IMG/VR virus record: IMGVR_UViG_3300008448_000179
Span: 1-43,986 of that record
Length of the DNA stretch: 43,986 bases
Direction: 5' to 3' (one strand)
DNA from: a virus
Made by a program: the position numbers and the translations under genes. Numbering within the stretch: the stretch's first letter is position 1; the number at the start of each line of letters is the position of its first letter. The notes under the pieces were generated by a model. It ran no database searches. It saw nothing but the letters and a program-made list of their open reading frames with translations, and was not told where the DNA came from. Positions 714 to 42,516 of this stretch are shown here, in pieces.

Positions 714-1004
714 TTACTTGAATGGGAGTTGAGAGGCGATCTCAGCCACTCTAGCTCCCGGAACCATGGGCTGATCAATCATGGCGGTATCCTCGCCAAG
801 CAGACGCAATGCCGCTTGGTACAGGCCAGGGGTACACTTCTCGGGATCGTCAAGATCTCGAATGATGTTACCCACCAACTTCCGCCTCAGGGTGTCGTTC
901 TGTGAACCGTCGAACTTACGCAGACGCATCTGCAGCAACGGCAACATTGACACACACTGATCGTCAGACAACATGTCAATCAATTCATTAACTTCCGGCA
1001 ACAA
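714..1004 (-). CDS. terS: Terminase small subunit-like protein (T7 gp18 position)
   Basis: DNA-recognition subunit of the packaging machine, assigned from position (between the holin-like gene and the large terminase, as T7 gp18), size (96 aa; gp18 is 89) and a helical N-terminus followed by a TPGLYQAALRLL stretch typical of podophage small terminases. The listed start is TTG at 1004, preceded by GGGGTGA, and overlaps the previous stop by 17 nt. An in-frame ATG at 974 (starting MLSDDQCV) is an alternative with a weaker ribosome site. There is no catalytic motif, as expected. Confidence 0.72.
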   Translation of the reverse strand: MLPEVNELIDMLSDDQCVSMLPLLQMRLRKFDGSQNDTLRRKLVGNIIRDLDDPEKCTPGLYQAALRLLGEDTAMIDQPMVPGARVAEIASQLPFK

Positions 1005-1185
1005 GTTTCACCCCAAGTGCAATACATCCTGTGGCAAACATACCGATAGCCACGGACAAGATATGGTTCTTCGTGTTGTTGACCGCCATTTGATTGGTGA
1101 GACACTTAACGTCTCTGGTCAACTCCTCAAGGGTATGCACCACCCACTTACGATGTGATTCCCAACTGTCAGGCCCCTGTTCCAT
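988..1185 (-). CDS. Holin-like membrane protein, XhlA-type (T7 gp17.5 position)
   Basis: 65-aa protein with an amphipathic helical N-terminal half (about residues 8-35, HTLEELTRDVKCLTNQM) and one C-terminal membrane segment (about 42-62, ILSVAIGMFATGCIALGVKLV). This layout resembles XhlA/haemolysin-type small lysis proteins. It lies between the tail-fibre/lipoprotein genes and the small terminase, where T7 has its holin gp17.5. The start is ATG at 1185 behind GGAGG with 5 nt spacing, overlapping the lipoprotein stop by 17 nt; a longer upstream frame is not needed. Likely role: inner-membrane lesion that releases or activates the lysozyme. Holin function is inferred from topology and position. 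Confidence 0.65.
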   Translation of the reverse strand: MEQGPDSWESHRKWVVHTLEELTRDVKCLTNQMAVNNTKNHILSVAIGMFATGCIALGVKLVAGS

Positions 1186-1879
1186 CTTTGCCTCCGGTCT
1201 TGCTGAACGAGCGATTAAGACCGGGTACTGCGGACCTGAGCGCGGCAATGCCTTCATTGACCTTGCCTTCTTTGATCAACTTCACGGGACCGTCATACTT
1301 GGCGTAGAACCAATTGCTGACAACCATGATGCCCTTGGAGACAAATCCAAGAACGGACTTGACCAATGTATCCAGACCGAACCGCCAACCGACAATGACC
1401 ACAAGAGCCAGCGTCAACAGGGTAACGACCTTACGGATACCTGAACCCAGGGATTCCCAGAACCCGACGACATCTTGCACATTGTTAGCCGCCTTGCCAA
1501 CCTCCTTGGCGGACACCGTAACCTCCTTGGTAACCCCAAGGATGGCATCCGTAGATTGCTTGGCCGCCTGCAGGTCCACCAGAATGTCCGCATTTGCCTT
1601 TAGAGACGTTTTGAGCGATTCCTGGACCTGGGGGCTACCCACGGCAGGGGTCACCAGCAGAACGCTGCTAATGGCATTGTAGGCCGTCTGGGACGATTCC
1701 TCGATCTTGTCCAACTTCACAGACACATTGGTAGCTTGCTCTTTGGCCTGCACCATAGCCTGCTGAATGTTATCGGACTCCTTGTAAAGCGAGTTCTGAT
1801 ACTTGCCGACCGAGGATGACTTACAGCCAACCGCAATAACGGCAAGGACAATACACAGAATATTTACAAATTTATTCAT
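1169..1879 (-). CDS. Lipoprotein with coiled coil and membrane anchor, possible unimolecular spanin
   Basis: 236 aa. The N-terminus is a lipoprotein signal (MNKFVNIL... to AVGC, modified cysteine 19). Residues 30-148 are mostly helical and coiled-coil-like (KEQATNVSVKLDKIEE; SAKEVGKAANNV), then a membrane segment about 151-165 (VVTLLTLALVVIVGW) and about 70 more residues with a basic, mildly hydrophobic stretch. An outer-membrane lipid anchor and an inner-membrane segment in one chain is the u-spanin plan (phage T1 gp11 type), although this protein is longer and has a C-terminal extension. It lies between tail fibre and holin-like gene, consistent with a lysis role. A virion or adsorption-exclusion lipoprotein is the alternative. 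Start: ATG 1879 behind AAAGG. Confidence 0.6.
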   Translation of the reverse strand: MNKFVNILCIVLAVIAVGCKSSSVGKYQNSLYKESDNIQQAMVQAKEQATNVSVKLDKIEESSQTAYNAISSVLLVTPAVGSPQVQESLKTSLKANADILVDLQAAKQSTDAILGVTKEVTVSAKEVGKAANNVQDVVGFWESLGSGIRKVVTLLTLALVVIVGWRFGLDTLVKSVLGFVSKGIMVVSNWFYAKYDGPVKLIKEGKVNEGIAALRSAVPGLNRSFSKTGGKDGTGA

Positions 1880-4244: not shown

Positions 4245-7200
4245 TTGAATTCGTCAGGATTTTTACCAAACATGTAGTCAGAAATTCCGTTGTATCCTGT
4301 GGCTTCCGTAATGGACTTCATCCACCAGGCATTGAACAAAGGAATGTTACTTTCAACACGTTGAGCATCCTTAACATCTATTTGTTCTGTAGAAGAAACT
4401 GAGTCCTTCATTATGTTTGCAATAGACTTGAAAGTTCTTGCTGTTGAACTGATTGGGTAAATACTCGATGCACTGACTTGTCCCGCAGGACGATCAGACA
4501 TAACTTCCATAACTGTCATTGGAATGATGTTCGTTGTTCCAATGAGGTTTGAACGTCCGACTGTCAACATCATGTTCTTAACCGGACTTTCTGCCCAGTC
4601 CTGAAGAACATCCTCGGCTGATTCGTCTCCATACAGAGTACGAAGGGAAACGTTGTACAATGTTTCACCGAACAAGGCGACACTGACCAAGAACAAACCA
4701 TACGCCAATTTTTCATTTGCAATATTATTAAGCATGATGTTATTAAACCATGCTCGTGCAAATCCTGTAAACTGGTTCTTCAATTTGCTGAATGGATCAA
4801 TGCCACCCATAGGCATATTGACATCCTGAACACCAGGAGTGACAACATGTCTAGTCAATTCAGTTTCTTTGTACGAGTTGATGATATCAACAGCGTCCGT
4901 GTATTCCGGATTCTTCAGTTTGAGTTCTTCGAGAAGATCGTAATCCAACGCACCGTTGTCTTTATCAAGAAGTCTGCCGCCTGTTTTGAGATCCATCTCA
5001 CGAATTTTCTGGATGATATCAGGATTCAATAGACCTGCTTGGTTAAACCTAGCAGCCAATGAGATATCTTCACCAAACCCGTGATCGCTTGCCATCTTTC
5101 TGAAGACCGCCTCAGGATCGACTTCATTGGCCCAGTTATAAGCCGCATGAGTCTTGGCCAACGCTTCAAGATTGTCGAACAAACGAATCAGACGTACCGA
5201 GGATGCGTGTACAGCCATCGCAGAAGCAAAGCCCTGCAACAGATCTTCACCCGCAATGCCACTGGTAGCGTGATGCAACCATGCAACAACGGACTTGGTT
5301 TTGTTCATCAGTCCTTCCGAGCCAAGAACGACTCGTGTCGGATTGATAAACGTACGCTCAAGCCAGTTACGATTGATTGTAACTGAATCAACAGAAGATG
5401 CCAAAGTGTGAGGCAGTCTATTACGCATCCACAGGTATCCTGCGGTAATGCCCTTCAACTGATCCTTTGTCATACCTCTCAGTGTGTCTCGAACCAGCCG
5501 TGAAAATCCGTGCGCTCCGTCTTTGACGGCGGTATTCAACAAGATCATGGGAACTTCGGTCACGCCTGTTGCTACGGCACTGCGAGCAGACACGGGAATT
5601 CGTGCCGCTGTTCCAATGATATCCGCAAGATCGTCTGTGATTCCTTGCTTTCTGGTGATATCAGAATACGATGAATCTCTCAAAGCATTGAACTGATTGC
5701 GAAGGTACTGTGTACTATTTTTAATTGCTTCTCGGGCTTTCTCATCAAGATCAGCCTGTCTCAGTAACATGTCCTCAATACCGTCAATCAGTTCCAAAGC
5801 ACCGATATCTCGTCGTGAAACACCAAGCAATTGTTTGACAAAGGCATTGATGGCTTCTTGTTCAGAGATTCGATACACGGTTCTAGTATATTGGTTGAGT
5901 CCTTCACCGGGACGGAAGTCAATAAACTTAGACACTTCAGGATGAAACCATGCGTCAACCTGGACGGCACGTTCCAAAGTAGCGTCTGCCCTAGCCAACG
6001 CCAAATCTTGTTTGGCCTTGTCAATAGGCATTCCAAGTTTGTTTCTAGCCGCAAGGTGTGCTTCTCTCAAAAGACCCTCAACAGGAACTCCATCGGTATC
6101 AACCTTGGTTGAACGCAGGATTTCAAAGTATCTGATCTTATCAGCAGGCAACAGATCGTTCACGTTCTTCGGTTCTGCTGAATATCCTCGACCTAAACCA
6201 GCAAATGTATACTCACTAGTAGCGGGATTCCAAACCCACATACCTTCAATAGATCGAAGTGTCTTCTTGTGCAAGACCGCAGTAGGTCCGCTAAATTGTT
6301 CATCAAAGAATTTAAACAGACCATCTGTAAGCCCTTGTAAATCACGACGATCACTTCTAACTACGAACGTTCCTGAGTACGCATCAAGCGTTCCCTTGAA
6401 GTGTCCTGATGCAATTCCTCGACGTTCCATTTCTTTATACAGTCCCGACAGAATCGGAACCACCTGATCTGCTAGTCTCTGAATCTGAGGACCAGTAGAC
6501 GTAGGCAATGTAACGTTATTGATTTGAGCCAGCGATACTTTCATCACCAGTTCTCGTGTTGCATCGTCAACGTTATTCAGAACAGTATTGATCTTATCAA
6601 TCGTACGGCTGATTTGAGTCACAGCCAACTGTTTACGCTGGCTAAGACCAGGACCAACCAAAGTGTTGTATCCAAAGGACGATGTGTAGAGATTGTGAGA
6701 AGAGACCAACTGACTCATTCTGGCGATAATCGGAATAGCGGAACCGACCGTGGCCAAAGAGCCTTGGTCAAACACGCCACCAACCTTTCGCAATGTACGA
6801 ACAGAATCTGAAGAGGCGTACACAAGCCAGTTGTTGTTGCCCTTGTTCAGTGTTCCATCTTCAGCAGCATTGACAAGAATACGTCCAACTTCATTAGAGT
6901 CGGCTTTTTCACCGGAAAGTTTTTCTGGAACTCCGAACTCAAAGATCTTTTCACGAGTAGCAGGAACCTCTTTCATTCCTTTGCTGTTGGCAGGAGCATA
7001 GTTTCTGTTGAACACTTCGTGCAATTTTCTAAGAGATCTGCGTATTTCAGTTCGGGCTGCGCGTATCTCTTCCAGATTGCCACCTGCGTCTGCCTTGTCT
7101 CGTGCCACTCGTGCTGCTTCCACGGATTTAACGGCTCTGGCATAAGCACTGGTGGGATTGTTAAAGTCATTAACAGGAACGACCAACTTCTGAAGTTCTT

Positions 7201-31959: not shown

Positions 31960-32193
31960 TTATCCTTTCATAAATGTTCCGGCCTGGTAGTTCTCTGACT
32001 TGCGAACAAGTCGAAGACAACGCTCGGCAAACAACATCTGAATCTCTTCGCACTCGATCTTCAAGTGCTTCAGTGCGGTATCGTTCGAGATGTCGTACTG
32101 TTCCATGATGTCCAAGATCGTTCTCGACAGGAACACGGCCTTGTCAGCAAGACGACGATCAATGGAAGAAATAGTCGGAGCGGTAGACTTCAT
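31960..32193 (-). CDS. Small helical protein after RNA polymerase
   Basis: 77 aa, not recognised. Mostly helical (DRRLADKAVFLSRTILDIME; ALKHLKIECEEIQMLFAERC), charged, no membrane segment. The start is uncertain: ATG 32193 has GGA 5 nt upstream but lies 35 nt inside the RNA polymerase frame; the first in-frame ATG beyond the polymerase is Met30 of this model. It ends 2 nt before ThyX, so it belongs to the polymerase-ThyX-NrdJ message. Possible polymerase or host-RNA-polymerase regulator by position only. Confidence 0.6.
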   Translation of the reverse strand: MKSTAPTISSIDRRLADKAVFLSRTILDIMEQYDISNDTALKHLKIECEEIQMLFAERCLRLVRKSENYQAGTFMKG

Positions 32194-34663
32194 ACAAATC
32201 CAAACTGCCACGAGGTGGCAAAGAGGGCAGTGCAATGCCGTACTTGTTTTCGAGATACGTCTTCATCGTTTCCAACACGGAGTGCTTGTGCATCTCCACG
32301 AACTGGTGACGGATCTCGTAGTTCATCGTGGCCACAAAGCCAGCGTGAACGGCGTACGAGTCATGTACAGGCCCGAAGTTACTAATACCCTTGGCGTTCA
32401 GTGCCAAGATCGTAAGAAACAAATGACTTGCATCGAGCGAGTGTACCACGTTGGGTGCGACTCCTCGCACCTGCTTGGTCACGACAATCTCGGGATCGTC
32501 GTCTGTCGCTTTGTAGTCGATGTTGCCGACAGCGGTGTACACCTGTCGGCGATTCTTGGATGTATAGGCTTGTGACACGATGAAGCCTGCAGGTGTTTGC
32601 CACTCGACAGGCAGGCCGTGTTCACCAAGAATCTTGGCAACATTCTGCAACCAGTCCATGTACTGCCGTGCGGCCACGACAACCTGGGACACCGCATCGT
32701 ACACGACTTGCTTGAGGTAGTTGGCGTTCTTGTACGCCATGCCCTGCAAGCCGTCCGTGTGACGGTCTTGGATAAACTGCCTCAGGATGCCCTGCTTGGT
32801 CACGCCGTACGGGGTGGTCATCACAGCCCTCTTGACGGTCTTGCGTGACACATGGCCCCTCCACGCCCAACAGGGAAGGGTCTGGTCCTCGGTCATCTTG
32901 CAGTCTTGTTCGATCCGTACATTGACGACATCAGCCACCATCGAATAGATGTCTTGTGGCTTAGTGCCATGCACAAGATTGGTAGCCCGACCACCCACAG
33001 GATCAAGACCAATTGCCGAGTAGTGTTGTAGGCCATTACAACTTCCGTCCATAGCGACCGGAGTTCTTGACTGGAAATCCTTGGCGTAAGACTCAAGCCC
33101 AGACTTAGACCAATCACCAGGGACACCGTGGACGGTGAGACAGTCCACGAACTCCAACACTGCGGCAAGTAACTTGAAAGGATCTTCATAGTCCATCCAC
33201 TCCTTGTGGGTCAGTGGGTCTCTTGCCCACCGTTGTAGTTGGTCACAAGCGCACAGGTCTTTGACAACTCGCAGGCGACCTTCGAGGCTGTCCTTGTCGG
33301 CTCCCAACAGGTTAGCCACATGCACAGCCAACCAGTAGAATCCCCAATGGCCAAGCGGCTCGGGCTTGGCGAACTCTAGAAGCGCACGGCCTGAGTCGTC
33401 CGCTTGTGGGTGGACGAACGCAGGGATCGGATACGCACGGCCACGCCAATCGACCTGGTAGGGGAAGTAGATTGCGGGGTACTTGGAGAATCGACGGGCG
33501 ATGTCTAACTTGAACAGCATCTGATATCGAAGTCCGATTGTCTTGTTGTTCCAATCGTGGATCGACTCAGCGTCAGCAAGCCATCGGTCCTTGTCTTCCT
33601 TGGCCACGCCTTCCCACCGCTTCTTGCGCTTGGCCTTGGGGTTGAATCCCTTGGGCTTGGGCGGGATCTTCTTCAGTTCACGGCCAGGGATTCCGGCCTT
33701 GTCGCCGCCTGATTCCCACACGGCCTGCATCACATCAGCGACACGCTTGTTGATGCGCCACTCGGTACGTTGGCAGACATTCAGTGCCGCCATCATCTCT
33801 TGCGAGGGATGCGTCACCATCTGCTCGAACGTACCCTTGACCACGGTGTTCTTCAGGCACAGGTATCCGCCAGTGCCGAAGTCCTTGGTCCATGGTGTCG
33901 GTGGCACGACCATGGGAAGACCGTACGGGTTCATGATCTCCATGTCCGAGTGGTGCTTCTCCATCAACTGCCGTGTCTTGGGCTTCAGCATAACGTGCTT
34001 CGTTGTCTTGTAGCCGAACCCACTGGTCCGGCCACCGTTGCCACGCTCGGTGGACTTGACATACACGATGTCGAATAGATCGGTACACTCGACAGCCAGT
34101 CCGATCAGCGCACATCCAAGTTCGATGCGCCTGCGCTTGGGCCACTCGATGTTAGCGATGCCCATCTTGCGCTTACACATTTGGATACTGGCCTTGTCGA
34201 TACGCTTGCGTTTGGACATCAACATCGTGAGAACGTCACGATCTTGTTTACGCATGGTGTCGAGGTACTTCTGTAACTTGACGTTAGATGCGACATACAG
34301 TGCCGCCGTCAGTACAGGACAGTCATTGGGTTTCTGGGCCACATGAAACAGTGACACCAGCGTGATGTACGCAAGTTTATCAGGGTCCATCGTCAGCATC
34401 ATCAGTTCGTAACTGTCGTTGGATCGGATCTGTCCACTCAGCAGTCGATCTTCGATCTGCTGTTGTTCAAGTTCGATGGCCTTGATCAAGTACGGCATCC
34501 ATCGACTCATCAGTTTCAGATCACCAGGCTTCTCGCCTTGCTTCTTGCGTGTCACCAACTCACGGTATCGTGCAACACCGCGATCAATGGACTCGATCTC
34601 CAATTCTTTCTGAGAGACGAACAACCAGTCCTTCGTTTCCTTGGAGTGAGTATCGAATATCAC
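32159..34663 (-). CDS. Single-subunit DNA-directed RNA polymerase (T7 gp1-like)
   Basis: 834 aa (T7: 883). Transcribes the phage's middle and late genes. Motif A PVAMDGSCNGLQHYSA with catalytic Asp near 539; motif B RKTVKRAVMTTPYGVT near 605-620 with the catalytic Lys and Tyr; motif C GPVHDSYAVHAGF with Asp near 767. The end is SDYFFH, matching the aromatic 'foot' (FAFA) of T7 RNA polymerase. The N-terminal 300 residues are divergent, as expected for the promoter-recognition part, so its promoters cannot be predicted from T7. Start ATG 34663. Overlaps the stop of the previous small gene by 4 nt. Confidence 0.97.
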   Translation of the reverse strand: MIFDTHSKETKDWLFVSQKELEIESIDRGVARYRELVTRKKQGEKPGDLKLMSRWMPYLIKAIELEQQQIEDRLLSGQIRSNDSYELMMLTMDPDKLAYITLVSLFHVAQKPNDCPVLTAALYVASNVKLQKYLDTMRKQDRDVLTMLMSKRKRIDKASIQMCKRKMGIANIEWPKRRRIELGCALIGLAVECTDLFDIVYVKSTERGNGGRTSGFGYKTTKHVMLKPKTRQLMEKHHSDMEIMNPYGLPMVVPPTPWTKDFGTGGYLCLKNTVVKGTFEQMVTHPSQEMMAALNVCQRTEWRINKRVADVMQAVWESGGDKAGIPGRELKKIPPKPKGFNPKAKRKKRWEGVAKEDKDRWLADAESIHDWNNKTIGLRYQMLFKLDIARRFSKYPAIYFPYQVDWRGRAYPIPAFVHPQADDSGRALLEFAKPEPLGHWGFYWLAVHVANLLGADKDSLEGRLRVVKDLCACDQLQRWARDPLTHKEWMDYEDPFKLLAAVLEFVDCLTVHGVPGDWSKSGLESYAKDFQSRTPVAMDGSCNGLQHYSAIGLDPVGGRATNLVHGTKPQDIYSMVADVVNVRIEQDCKMTEDQTLPCWAWRGHVSRKTVKRAVMTTPYGVTKQGILRQFIQDRHTDGLQGMAYKNANYLKQVVYDAVSQVVVAARQYMDWLQNVAKILGEHGLPVEWQTPAGFIVSQAYTSKNRRQVYTAVGNIDYKATDDDPEIVVTKQVRGVAPNVVHSLDASHLFLTILALNAKGISNFGPVHDSYAVHAGFVATMNYEIRHQFVEMHKHSVLETMKTYLENKYGIALPSLPPRGSLDLYEVYRSDYFFH

Positions 34664-38706: not shown

Positions 38707-39198
38707 TCATCTCGCCTCGTCAATCGCTCGACAAACAATCGGATTCTTGCGTGCATGGGTGAGACTGTCGCTATGGCGAACAAAGTCCGCTGAAGTCCAG
38801 AACACAACTACAGTATCAGCCAACACACGAATGGCCTCTTCAAGTTCGGCAATCCGTTCTTTTTGGGAAGGGTCGCTCGGCGTTTGTGGTTCATCGCCAT
38901 AGACCTGCTCATTGTCGTAGACCCGTGCTTCGCCGTAGACCCGCGTATTGCCGTAGATCCATGCTTTGCCGCCGACCACCGCATTGCCGCAGACATGCGC
39001 ATTGCCGCAGACATGCGCATTGCCGACGATCATCGCATTGCCGTAGACATGCGCATTGTCGTAGACCCGCGCAGTGCGTCCGACATATGCCGTATCCGCA
39101 ACAGTCGCAGTGTCAGCAACCCAACCGCCGCCGTTGGGGTGTTGATGCGCCGGGACCAGACCGTTGCCGTCGTTGAAATCGTAAGTGGTTTCGCTCAT
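38707..39198 (-). CDS. Beta-solenoid repeat protein (YdcK-like)
   Basis: 163 aa. After a short N-terminus (MSETTYDFNDGNGLVPAHQH) there are about a dozen six-residue turns of the type [VI]-x-G-N-A-x, e.g. VYDNAHVYGNAMIVGNAHV, VCGNAVVGGKAWIYGNTRV, running to about residue 100: a left-handed or YdcK-type beta solenoid. A charged helix follows (KERIAELEEAIRVLADTVV) and a short tail. Such repeat domains act in trimeric or surface proteins; the role in a phage early region is unknown. The DNA shows 18-bp repeats. ATG 39198 is chosen because it follows the repeated GGAGAACAAGCG ribosome site. Confidence 0.8.
   Translation of the reverse strand: MSETTYDFNDGNGLVPAHQHPNGGGWVADTATVADTAYVGRTARVYDNAHVYGNAMIVGNAHVCGNAHVCGNAVVGGKAWIYGNTRVYGEARVYDNEQVYGDEPQTPSDPSQKERIAELEEAIRVLADTVVVFWTSADFVRHSDSLTHARKNPIVCRAIDEAR
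38900..39085. repeat. Tandem 18-bp repeats coding the beta-solenoid turns
   Basis: Imperfect units such as ATTGCCGCAGACATGCGC on the plus strand, two of them identical and adjacent near 38986-39021. Each unit is one six-residue turn. Such repeats can expand or contract by slippage. Confidence 0.8.
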
Positions 39199-39368
39199 CG
39201 CTTGTTCTCCATTGCGTCCTCGGTTCGCATCACAAGAGTGTCCATCATGTCGATGATGGTTCCGTCGTAAATCGTTTCGTTCGCCATCAACTCGTTCCAC
39301 ACACTCAACACGAGTTGCAGTCGTTCGTTATCGGTGGTGGGAATCTCAACTGTTTTGGTGTTGGTCAC
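39195..39368 (-). CDS. Small early protein, paralogue of the 63-aa protein at 38377
   Basis: 57 aa from GTG 39368 (GGAG 7 nt upstream): starts VTNTKTVEIPTTDNERLQLV, then LSVWNELMANETIYDGTIID and MMDTLVMRTEDAMENKR. Same spaced residues as the 38377-38568 protein (IP.TDN..L, W...M, DG..ID.MD). The tail EDAMENKR is identical to the tail of the lysozyme, because the junction repeat supplies the last codons. Function unknown. Confidence 0.6.
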   Translation of the reverse strand: MTNTKTVEIPTTDNERLQLVLSVWNELMANETIYDGTIIDMMDTLVMRTEDAMENKR

Positions 39369-39390
39369 GGTCTGTCTCCACTGGTGATGC

Positions 39391-39423
39391 TCATCGCTTG
39401 TTCTCCACCACAATCGTGTCCAT
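39391..39423 (-). CDS. Possible 10-aa mini-gene ending in ENKR
   Basis: ATG 39423 codes MDTIVVENKR and stops at the second copy of the junction repeat. It is followed by another mini frame, MSITSGDRP (39394-39365), that overlaps the GTG start of the 57-aa gene by GTGA. These look like remnants of duplicated genes or coupling leaders; translation is unproven. Confidence 0.25.
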   Translation of the reverse strand: MDTIVVENKR

Positions 39424-39426
39424 ATT

Positions 39427-39675
39427 TCATTGCTTCTCCAAAGCATTTGCCGAGTCGGTGGCTTTTCTCATTTCGTTTACTTTCAACACCGCCGCATATC
39501 TTTCAGGTTGTCCGGGGAATGTGTTTTGAAACACGGCCTGTTGTTCCCGCCAAGCCTTCACCTCAGCGCGAAGAATCGCAGTCTCATAGCGAAGCCGTTC
39601 GTACTGCTTACGCATGGTTTCCAAGTCATGCGCTACAAACTCAACGCCGTCATAGATGCTGTTGTCATAACTCAT
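39427..39675 (-). CDS. Small early coiled-coil protein
   Basis: 82 aa, unrecognised. MSYDNSIYDGVEFVAHDLET, then a long charged helix (MRKQYERLRYETAILRAEVK, AWREQQAVFQ) and a second helix at the end. The start ATG 39675 lies in the first junction repeat and overlaps the lysozyme stop (ATGA), so the pair is translationally coupled. A lysis-regulating role is conceivable because of that coupling, but there is no direct evidence. Confidence 0.7.
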   Translation of the reverse strand: MSYDNSIYDGVEFVAHDLETMRKQYERLRYETAILRAEVKAWREQQAVFQNTFPGQPERYAAVLKVNEMRKATDSANALEKQ

Positions 39676-40079
39676 CGCTTGTTCTCCATTGCATCTTCGA
39701 TCTTGTTCCAGTAAGACTTGGTTGCCGCCTTGCGATGGCCGGACGGACCACCGTTGTGAATCCGAGCAAGTTGCTCGGCATTCTTGCCCTTGCCGTACCT
39801 TGTCAGGTATGCCACCACAACCCTACGGGCATAAGCTTCCTCGAAGCAGGCATAGTACGGACGGCTGGCCAACGTGGGATCATAAGCGCACGCATCGGAC
39901 CAGTAACTTCGGTGGATCTGATAAGGCCCGATGGCCTTGCCGCCGTCACCGATGGCATCGCAGTCCCCGCCGGACTCGACCTGCTTGATGGCATCGAGCA
40001 ACTGCTGACTTGGTTGGGCCTGGGCCTGAGGCTCACCATAACAGAGAATCGCAAGGTAGTACACAAAGAAACGTTTCAT
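39672..40079 (-). CDS. Invertebrate-type (i-type, destabilase) lysozyme with signal peptide
   Basis: 135 aa. N-terminal export signal MKRFFVYYLAILCYGEPQAQAQ with likely cleavage near residue 21. The mature part is the i-type lysozyme fold: AIKQVESGGDC with glutamate 35, GDGGKAIGPYQIHRSYW with aspartate 45, YARRVVVAYLTRYGKG, and the diagnostic LARIHNGGPSG near 105-115. It cleaves peptidoglycan glycan chains. With a signal peptide it can reach the periplasm by host secretion, so lysis would depend less on a holin for release. T7 uses an amidase (gp3.5) instead. Start ATG 40079 with AAGGAG. It lies in the early block, far from the late lysis genes. Confidence 0.88.
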   Translation of the reverse strand: MKRFFVYYLAILCYGEPQAQAQPSQQLLDAIKQVESGGDCDAIGDGGKAIGPYQIHRSYWSDACAYDPTLASRPYYACFEEAYARRVVVAYLTRYGKGKNAEQLARIHNGGPSGHRKAATKSYWNKIEDAMENKR

Positions 40080-40088
40080 AATGTCTCC

Positions 40089-40385
40089 TTAGTTGGTTCT
40101 CAGGCAGAACGCTTGCTTGCCGTACACACGGATAGCGAACACCGTCTTGTTGATCTCGATGTCGATCTCATTGACCCACGCCTCGACCATCAGGCGGGAC
40201 ACGGGATTGGGGTTGTCGAACGACAGCCAGTTCTTGGGGTACGTCAACGTGCGCTCGTCGCACTCGTTGCCCAGATACAGCACCTGAGTGTCCTGCCACG
40301 GGTTGTACACCAACATACAGTCATCGACCTTGCGAACAGAGTGAAACAAGTTGTACAACTTCTCAGCCAGTTCTCGATACGTCAT
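40089..40385 (-). CDS. Early protein, unknown function
   Basis: 98 aa. MTYRELAEKLYNLFHSVRKV at the start, then DDCMLVYNPWQDTQVLYLGN and NEIDIEINKTVFAIRVYGKQ. Mixed alpha/beta, no motif recognised. ATG 40385 has AGGAG 9 nt upstream; GTG 40391 is the alternative. First gene after the promoter at 40452-40480, 10 nt before the lysozyme gene. Confidence 0.68.
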   Translation of the reverse strand: MTYRELAEKLYNLFHSVRKVDDCMLVYNPWQDTQVLYLGNECDERTLTYPKNWLSFDNPNPVSRLMVEAWVNEIDIEINKTVFAIRVYGKQAFCLRTN

Positions 40386-40405
40386 ATCCACATACTCCTA
40401 GTAGG

Positions 40406-40450: not shown

Positions 40451-40475
40451 CATGGTATTCCACACGCACGGCACT
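40451..40475 (-). repeat. 25-base repeat/stem-loop, copy 1
   Basis: Identical to 41462-41486. The minus-strand repeat plus its flank can fold with the core TGG-AATA-CCA; outer arm bases differ between copies (TGCGGTGC here, CACGGTAC there) but pairing with the constant arm CCGTGC is kept, using G.U pairs here. Confidence 0.6.
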
Positions 40476-40480
40476 GTCAA
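40452..40480 (-). promoter_or_regulatory. Sigma70-like early promoter overlapping the 25-base repeat
   Basis: Minus strand TTGACA (40480-40475), 17-nt spacer, TACCAT (40457-40452), with CGCTTGACA context as in two other early promoters. Consensus -35, good spacing and a moderate -10. Confidence 0.6.
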
Positions 40481-41461: not shown

Positions 41462-41486
41462 CATGGTATTCCACACGCACGGCACT
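41462..41486 (-). repeat. 25-base repeat/stem-loop, copy 2, with -10-like TACCAT
   Basis: Same 25 bases as 40451-40475. The -10-like TACCAT (41468-41463) is kept but the -35 is poor (CTTCCA). The flanking arm CACGG/CCGTG makes a stronger stem than copy 1. Lies 64 nt upstream of the 52-aa gene. Confidence 0.5.
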
Positions 41487-41985: not shown

Positions 41986-42516
41986 TTAGATCACCAAGTC
42001 GGCGGGAGTCCGACCCACCGACCGAATGTAGCCGCACCACAAGGCGGCCTGTGTTTGCGCGGGAGTCAGCCCGCACATCCGTGCGAGTTCCCGCATGACC
42101 TCGGTGTACTGGCGTACACCCTTCTTCGTTCCAAAAAGTTTCTGGTCAACACCAAAGCACTTGGCCATCCAAGTGTCGAGAACAACCGCCTCCTCATCGC
42201 CCTCAAGGGCCTTGGCGAAAGGCCCCGTCTTGAGACCGCGAATGCGGTTGTGGACGACGAAGTTTACCAACGCCGTAAATGTACCTTTCATCATGCCGTC
42301 CACCTTGCCCGTCTCGATAAACGCACGAGCAAGCCGCACGTTCCGTGTGACCTGGACACGGGGAGACGTCACAGACAGCACGCCGCAGACGTACTCCGTT
42401 GACACCTTGTGTCGTCGGGCGTACGCCCGCACCCTACGCCCCGCACGGGCGTACCACAGGTGACCATCATTCTCCATGCCCGAACGAACCAACGCCAACA
42501 ATGTCACATAATCCAT
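41986..42516 (-). CDS. Helix-hairpin-helix DNA glycosylase-like early protein
   Basis: 176 aa. All-helical: HLWYARAGRRVRAYARRHKV, VCGVLSVTSPRVQVTRNVRL, then IRGLKTGPFAKALEGDEEAV and VVLDTWMAKCFGVDQ. The order 'SP...N...A', 'G.KTG.F...L.GD', 'LDTWM.K.FGV' is that of a phage/plasmid family with an HhH-DNA-glycosylase-like fold; the DTWM aspartate would be at the catalytic site. Whether it repairs, protects or attacks DNA is unknown. Start ATG 42516 with GGAG 8 nt upstream. Follows a long regulatory gap. Confidence 0.62.
   Translation of the reverse strand: MDYVTLLALVRSGMENDGHLWYARAGRRVRAYARRHKVSTEYVCGVLSVTSPRVQVTRNVRLARAFIETGKVDGMMKGTFTALVNFVVHNRIRGLKTGPFAKALEGDEEAVVLDTWMAKCFGVDQKLFGTKKGVRQYTEVMRELARMCGLTPAQTQAALWCGYIRSVGRTPADLVI

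Follow-up and report, generated by a model that had tools for sequence, protein, structure and literature searches.

A destabilase-type lysozyme with a predicted export signal, the probable endolysin of a T7-like phage

The gene at positions 39672-40079 (minus strand) of a T7-like virus of bacteria encodes a 135-residue lysozyme of the destabilase family (i-type-like), and this protein is probably the endolysin of the phage: we infer that it is made early, exported by Sec and active in the periplasm, where it would cut the glycan strands of the wall. The window, that is, the whole stretch of DNA analysed, is a 43,986-base record. The destabilase family is best known from leeches and clams. The viral and bacterial branch to which the phage protein belongs is widespread and little studied, and the following sections describe its fold, its predicted export and its place in the genome.

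An i-type fold with few cysteines

The product belongs to the destabilase family both by profile and by fold. The open reading frame, running from ATG to TGA, scores 43.4 bits against the Pfam profile Destabilase (PF05497, cut-off 26.2, E 4.7e-11), and 15.4 bits against the SLT profile, under the cut-off of 21.3, which leaves it outside GH23 and the SLT domains. A phmmer search of the PDB returned i-type lysozymes only, namely leech destabilase (8bbu, E 7.7e-12) and the clam lysozymes (E 4.7e-9 to 7e-8). The AlphaFold2 model, built on a 73-sequence alignment, has a mean pLDDT of 96.7 and a pTM of 0.90. According to VIA-align, its best match is leech destabilase (8bbw, Z 18.1, rmsd 1.7 over 108 residues), with the clam lysozymes second (Z 16.6-16.8) and lytic transglycosylases as the next structural neighbours (Z 13.1 or less). 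Foldseek pairs the model with 8bbu at E 2.6e-6, and the top structural match among viral models is UniProt A0A6J5P067, a "Destabilase" from an uncultured Caudovirales phage. The preliminary description of this DNA had proposed an i-type lysozyme, and profile, PDB search and fold all point there. Its proposed check for another lysozyme or SLT family gave the same answer: all 73 aligned members match PF05497, and just nine also match SLT.

The two catalytic acids and the ARIHNGGP signature that it named are all present. Glu35 (39975-39977, minus strand, as for all residues given here) is the putative general acid and the counterpart of Glu18 in the clam enzyme; it is kept in 93/93 relatives and in the three animal sequences. 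Asp45 (39945-39947), the putative general base in a GD-G hairpin, is kept in 92/93. The signature spans residues 105-112 (39744-39767), and its ARxHNGGP form is conserved in relatives and animals alike, with H108 in 91 relatives and N109 and G111 in all 93. Cys78 (39846-39848), the only cysteine that the family keeps widely, is found in 83/93 relatives and 3/3 animals. These counts refer to distinct domains, the 93 being what was left of 106 once identical ones had been collapsed.

The phage protein thus shares with leech destabilase (8bbu, 8bbw) and the clam lysozymes (2dqa, 3ab6, 4pj2) the fold, the glutamate, the HNGGP motif and the cysteine at 78, but its hairpin loop is shorter by one residue. 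The spacing between Asp45 and the invariant Gly51 is 6 in 92/92 relatives, against 7 in the animal sequences. Because of this shorter loop, the alignment sets Asp45 one residue off the animal general base (Asp30 of the clam enzyme), so that Asp45 is likely, though not proven, to be its counterpart. In the clam i-type lysozyme, Asp30 is accompanied by the hairpin residue Ser35 (PMC2976769), which would position water; at that place the phage protein has Ala49. Alanine is found there in 69 of the 73 viral members, and serine in the other 4 and in 10 of the 20 bacterial ones. In leech destabilase, Ser49 and Ser51, the latter equivalent to clam Ser35, have been proposed for the isopeptidase activity (PMC10126035). 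They correspond to Gly47 and Ala49 in the phage protein, which is therefore not expected to have that activity. With a shorter loop and alanine in place of serine, both hydrolysis and transglycosylation are possible as the chemistry of the enzyme.

The scarcity of the family's disulphide cysteines, also pointed out in the preliminary description, is pronounced. The protein has four cysteines, one in the signal peptide and three in the mature domain, as against 13-14 in each of the three animal domains. A canonical animal i-type lysozyme (GH22i) has 12-14 disulphide cysteines, a definition that does not cover the phage protein. This poverty is general to the viral and bacterial members (0-3 cysteines per domain), and rooting the tree with SLT domains does not settle where the animals branch; a loss, as first proposed, is one possible direction of the change.

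The closest relative, 79% identical, is found in a sister phage. A protein scan brought 7 viral loci with relatives. A profile scan of viral contigs gave 276 matching stretches (tblastn E <= 1e-3), and further work drew on the best 80 among them. The 20 bacterial relatives come mostly from Planctomycetota MAGs, through a scan with two short patterns in which absences carry little meaning. Planctomycetota were considered as hosts, but PF05497 occurs in just 3/294 genomes of the phylum, and therefore no host is inferred. In the tree, the phage lysozyme pairs with its sister-phage homologue inside a viral group, and the three animal sequences form one side of a branch, apart from the viral and bacterial members. 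When SLT domains serve as outgroup, the destabilases split from them with good support and the position of the animals is left open. The phylogeny proposed in the preliminary description thus sets the protein in a viral clade, and a recent capture of an animal gene, as judged with these three animal sequences, finds no support.

Are phage versions rarely described, as was first stated? This is right for the literature but wrong for the databases, where relatives are common and some viral members already bear the name Destabilase (UniProt and GenBank). One of them, gp55 of Cellulophaga phage Calle_1, annotated "lysozyme (Destabilise-like protein)", is 36% identical to the phage lysozyme. The protein resembles the viral and bacterial PF05497 branch in profile, size, export signal, acids and NGGP signature, and is set apart by its place in the early operon of a T7-like phage.

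Early operon and predicted export

The recognised genes of the window all lie on the minus strand. They include a T7-type RNA polymerase (32159-34663, PF00940, E 3.7e-103), a DNA polymerase, a primase-helicase and a terminase large subunit cut by the window end (1-675, phrog_38, E 5.9e-37), which is complete in the sister phage (580 aa). A T7-type tail fibre, a weak gp14-like match, and connector, capsid and tail proteins are further T7-like features. The lysozyme gene is found upstream of the RNA polymerase, among other small early genes. Nine bases before it ends a gene for a 100-residue protein of the same operon (40089-40391, minus strand), with no family match and not conserved in the sister phage. 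Upstream of this gene pair, a promoter scan found a sigma70-like promoter, TTGACA-N17-TACCAT (40452-40480, minus strand), to which TTGACT-17-TACCAT corresponds at this place of the operon in the sister phage. Taken as a whole the scan gave 7 promoters for 5.9 expected, that is, no excess; a looser search for TTGACA gave 6 sites where 2.15 were expected, and half of the 6 lie on the coding strand of the early region. Gene order and promoter agree with the early placement first proposed.

Several other details of this region were recorded. A perfect 24-base repeat, GTGCCGTGCGTGTGGAATACCATG, occurs on the minus strand at 40451-40474, where it makes up the main part of the sigma70-like promoter that precedes the lysozyme operon, and at 41462-41485, with none expected by chance. 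An identical 17-base string, GGAGAACAAGCGATGAG, lies at three successive gene junctions (39194-39210, 39390-39406 and 39671-39687, minus strand; 0.15 expected) and carries a ribosome-binding site, a stop and a start; codons for DAMENKR are repeated ahead of it in two genes. The early region also encodes a YdcK-like beta-solenoid protein (38707-39300, minus strand; below the cut-off in Pfam, and matching phrog_5070 at E 2.7e-24), with relatives in the two nearest phages, and a DUF7178 protein (41986-42516, minus strand; PF23802, E 1.1e-21), 76% identical in the sister phage.

The lysozyme begins with a predicted export signal (residues 1-21; 40017-40079, minus strand), assigned by eye and by hydropathy. 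Its N-terminus, MKRFFVYYLAILCYGEPQAQA-Q, reads as a basic start, a hydrophobic core and an AQA motif before Gln22, which by eye suggests that the signal is cleaved and not kept as an anchor of the SAR type. The peak 9-residue hydropathy is 2.34. A peak of at least 2.0 was found in 103 of 104 relatives and, among the other N-termini of these loci, taken as background, in 61 of 757, starts having been picked by their ribosome-binding site (104 of 105 N-termini were used, L010 being without a scored start). The predicted signal, part of the first description, is therefore a trait of the family. Both Sec-exported and SAR endolysins likewise carry their own export signal, and a destabilase-type enzyme was not found among them in the literature searched.

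The probable endolysin role and its rivals

The lysozyme is the only recognisable wall-cutting enzyme among the window proteins scanned, and the four endolysin families tested are absent from the phage. Across 36 virus records that bear a destabilase (33 of the 80 best viral loci, on long contigs but not on every long one, plus the window, Calle_1 and phi40:1), Amidase_2, Phage_lysozyme and Peptidase_M15_3 each gave no match; SLT gave matches in 10 records, and by their coordinates all of these fall on the destabilase gene. For comparison, 31 T7-like genomes without a destabilase were taken, these being all loci on contigs of at least 37 kb among the matches listed (31/80); the destabilase profile, which does match the window, has no match in any of them. 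Amidase_2 was present in 23/31 and GH24 over the cut-off in 4, together 24/31, in a comparison covering these two families, with M15_3 and SLT outside it. Amidase_2 in 23 of 31 genomes and 0 of 36 is what would be expected if the destabilase takes the place of the T7-type amidase that most T7-like phages have. T7-like records number only 3 among the 36, so that like for like 3 are compared with 31. In the sister phage (G001), whose genes follow the order of the window and whose TerL is complete, no matched or large open reading frame separates TerL from the first early gene; the part cut off at the window end therefore hides no obvious endolysin. Elsewhere in the genome there may be a muralytic domain of an undescribed family, the 2148-aa virion protein being one place for it.

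No lysis cassette was found around the lysozyme, and the candidate holin and spanin genes are about 38 kb away. Among viral loci, a one-segment membrane protein lies right beside the lysozyme in 1/47 by a crude gene caller, which missed the lysozyme gene in the other 20 of 67 distinct loci. The two late membrane-protein genes of the window lie between the tail fibre and the terminase. The first (1169-1879, minus strand) encodes 236 residues. Its product has a lipobox-like VGC close to the N-terminus and, in the C-terminal part, another hydrophobic segment, a layout like that of a unimolecular spanin; it is 99% identical in the sister phage, where other genes are more diverged, and has no Pfam or NCBIfam match over the cut-off. 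The second (988-1185, minus strand), between the lipoprotein gene and TerS, encodes 65 residues, or 89 if an upstream start is used; its product has a single hydrophobic segment, which is C-terminal, and no family match. Their place matches that of the T7 lysis genes, and on this likeness they are a candidate spanin and a candidate holin.

According to the preferred reading, the lysozyme would be transcribed early, probably from the host-type promoter, and its N-terminal signal would direct it to Sec for export. Once in the periplasm, the mature domain of 114 residues would cut the glycan strands of the peptidoglycan, Glu35 serving as the acid and Asp45 probably as the base. The timing of lysis would then come from the late membrane proteins, the candidate holin and the spanin-like lipoprotein, by collapse of the membrane potential, or else the enzyme would simply build up slowly. 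T7 lysozyme, the gp3.5 amidase, has the same presumed job with a different fold and a different bond cut. It is cytoplasmic and waits for the holin, whereas the phage destabilase-type lysozyme has an export signal; the T7 gene, like the one described here, has an early-to-middle placement away from the late membrane genes.

Would an enzyme exported so early really be kept for lysis? It might instead loosen or remodel the peptidoglycan, or block superinfecting phages or competitors, with an unrecognised protein performing lysis. The early operon and its promoter would suit such a role, free export at that stage would be harmful unless the activity were held back, and in other phages the gene adjoins AdoMet decarboxylase, DNA polymerase B and AAA genes and not holins, metabolic and replication neighbours which make a task outside lysis possible. 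This reading is nevertheless unlikely: the 36 records hold no second wall-cutting family, and separation of endolysin and holin genes is normal in the T7 group, T7 itself keeping the one away from the other. Far less probable still is the idea of a toxin-like lysozyme restrained by the coiled-coil protein encoded next to it. This downstream gene (39427-39675, minus strand; 82 aa) is indeed coupled to the lysozyme as first described, its start overlapping the lysozyme stop as ATGA at 39672-39675, and in L018 and L019, two near-identical contigs which are the only loci of this kind, the gene after the lysozyme is a weak homologue that likewise overlaps it by 4 bases. But in the sister phage, the closest relative, the next gene is unrelated, and over 83 viral loci the genes after the lysozyme fall into 34 unrelated clusters, the largest of 19, including AdoMet decarboxylase, DNA polymerase B and an AAA ATPase. 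The 82-aa protein has no evident export signal by eye, and its C-terminal stretch also ends a beta-solenoid protein of the sister phage and is therefore a module found in more than one protein. It is thus no dedicated partner of the lysozyme, and the restraint first suggested for it is abandoned. The 19 loci of the largest cluster are L022, where the gene after the lysozyme lies at 6387-6782, and 18 further loci with homologues of that gene; it often overlaps the lysozyme gene by 4 bases, and the member tested matches S-adenosylmethionine decarboxylase.

A further alternative concerns the chemistry and is compatible with the endolysin role: the protein could be a lytic transglycosylase in an i-type-like fold, releasing anhydromuropeptides instead of hydrolysing. 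The alanine (Ala49) that most viral members have in place of the putative water-positioning serine, the shorter hairpin, the nine of 73 members that also match SLT and the proximity of lytic transglycosylases in structure (Z up to 13.1) all speak for it. Asp45 would be dispensable for such an enzyme but is nearly invariant, the destabilase chains score clearly higher (Z 16.6-18.1), and SLT domains form a separate group in the tree. Transglycosylation is thus a real but somewhat doubtful prospect, and the endolysin reading is compatible with either chemistry.

Viral and bacterial destabilases

That destabilases form a family and are present in phages was already in the databases; what is new here is the link with the missing amidase, the conserved predicted export signal, the difference in the catalytic loop and the gap in PHROGs. 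PHROGs is a common phage library, and it has no match for the phage lysozyme and at most 4 of the 73 relatives in any one family, so that phages using destabilases can look as if they had no endolysin. PhaLP 2.0, the only paper on phage lysins that the search brought up, names destabilase once, among the rare domains of predicted lysins (PMC13237592), and a 2023 phylogeny of the family left aside its bacterial and viral branch (PMC10126035). The literature searched, outside which most subscription journals lay, yielded no description of a phage destabilase.

Naming the destabilase family fills the gap in PHROGs, and its viral and bacterial members make up a natural set of disulphide-poor i-type-like lysozymes which should be easily made in bacteria. 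On a wider view, which is offered tentatively and is rather doubtful as a whole, these cysteine-poor proteins may be a widespread and so far unrecognised class of self-exporting endolysins, used by many environmental phages instead of the common amidases and lysozymes, and the animal i-type lysozymes may descend from them, having gained their disulphides on the way. In any case, they provide sequences for studying the origin of the animal enzymes.
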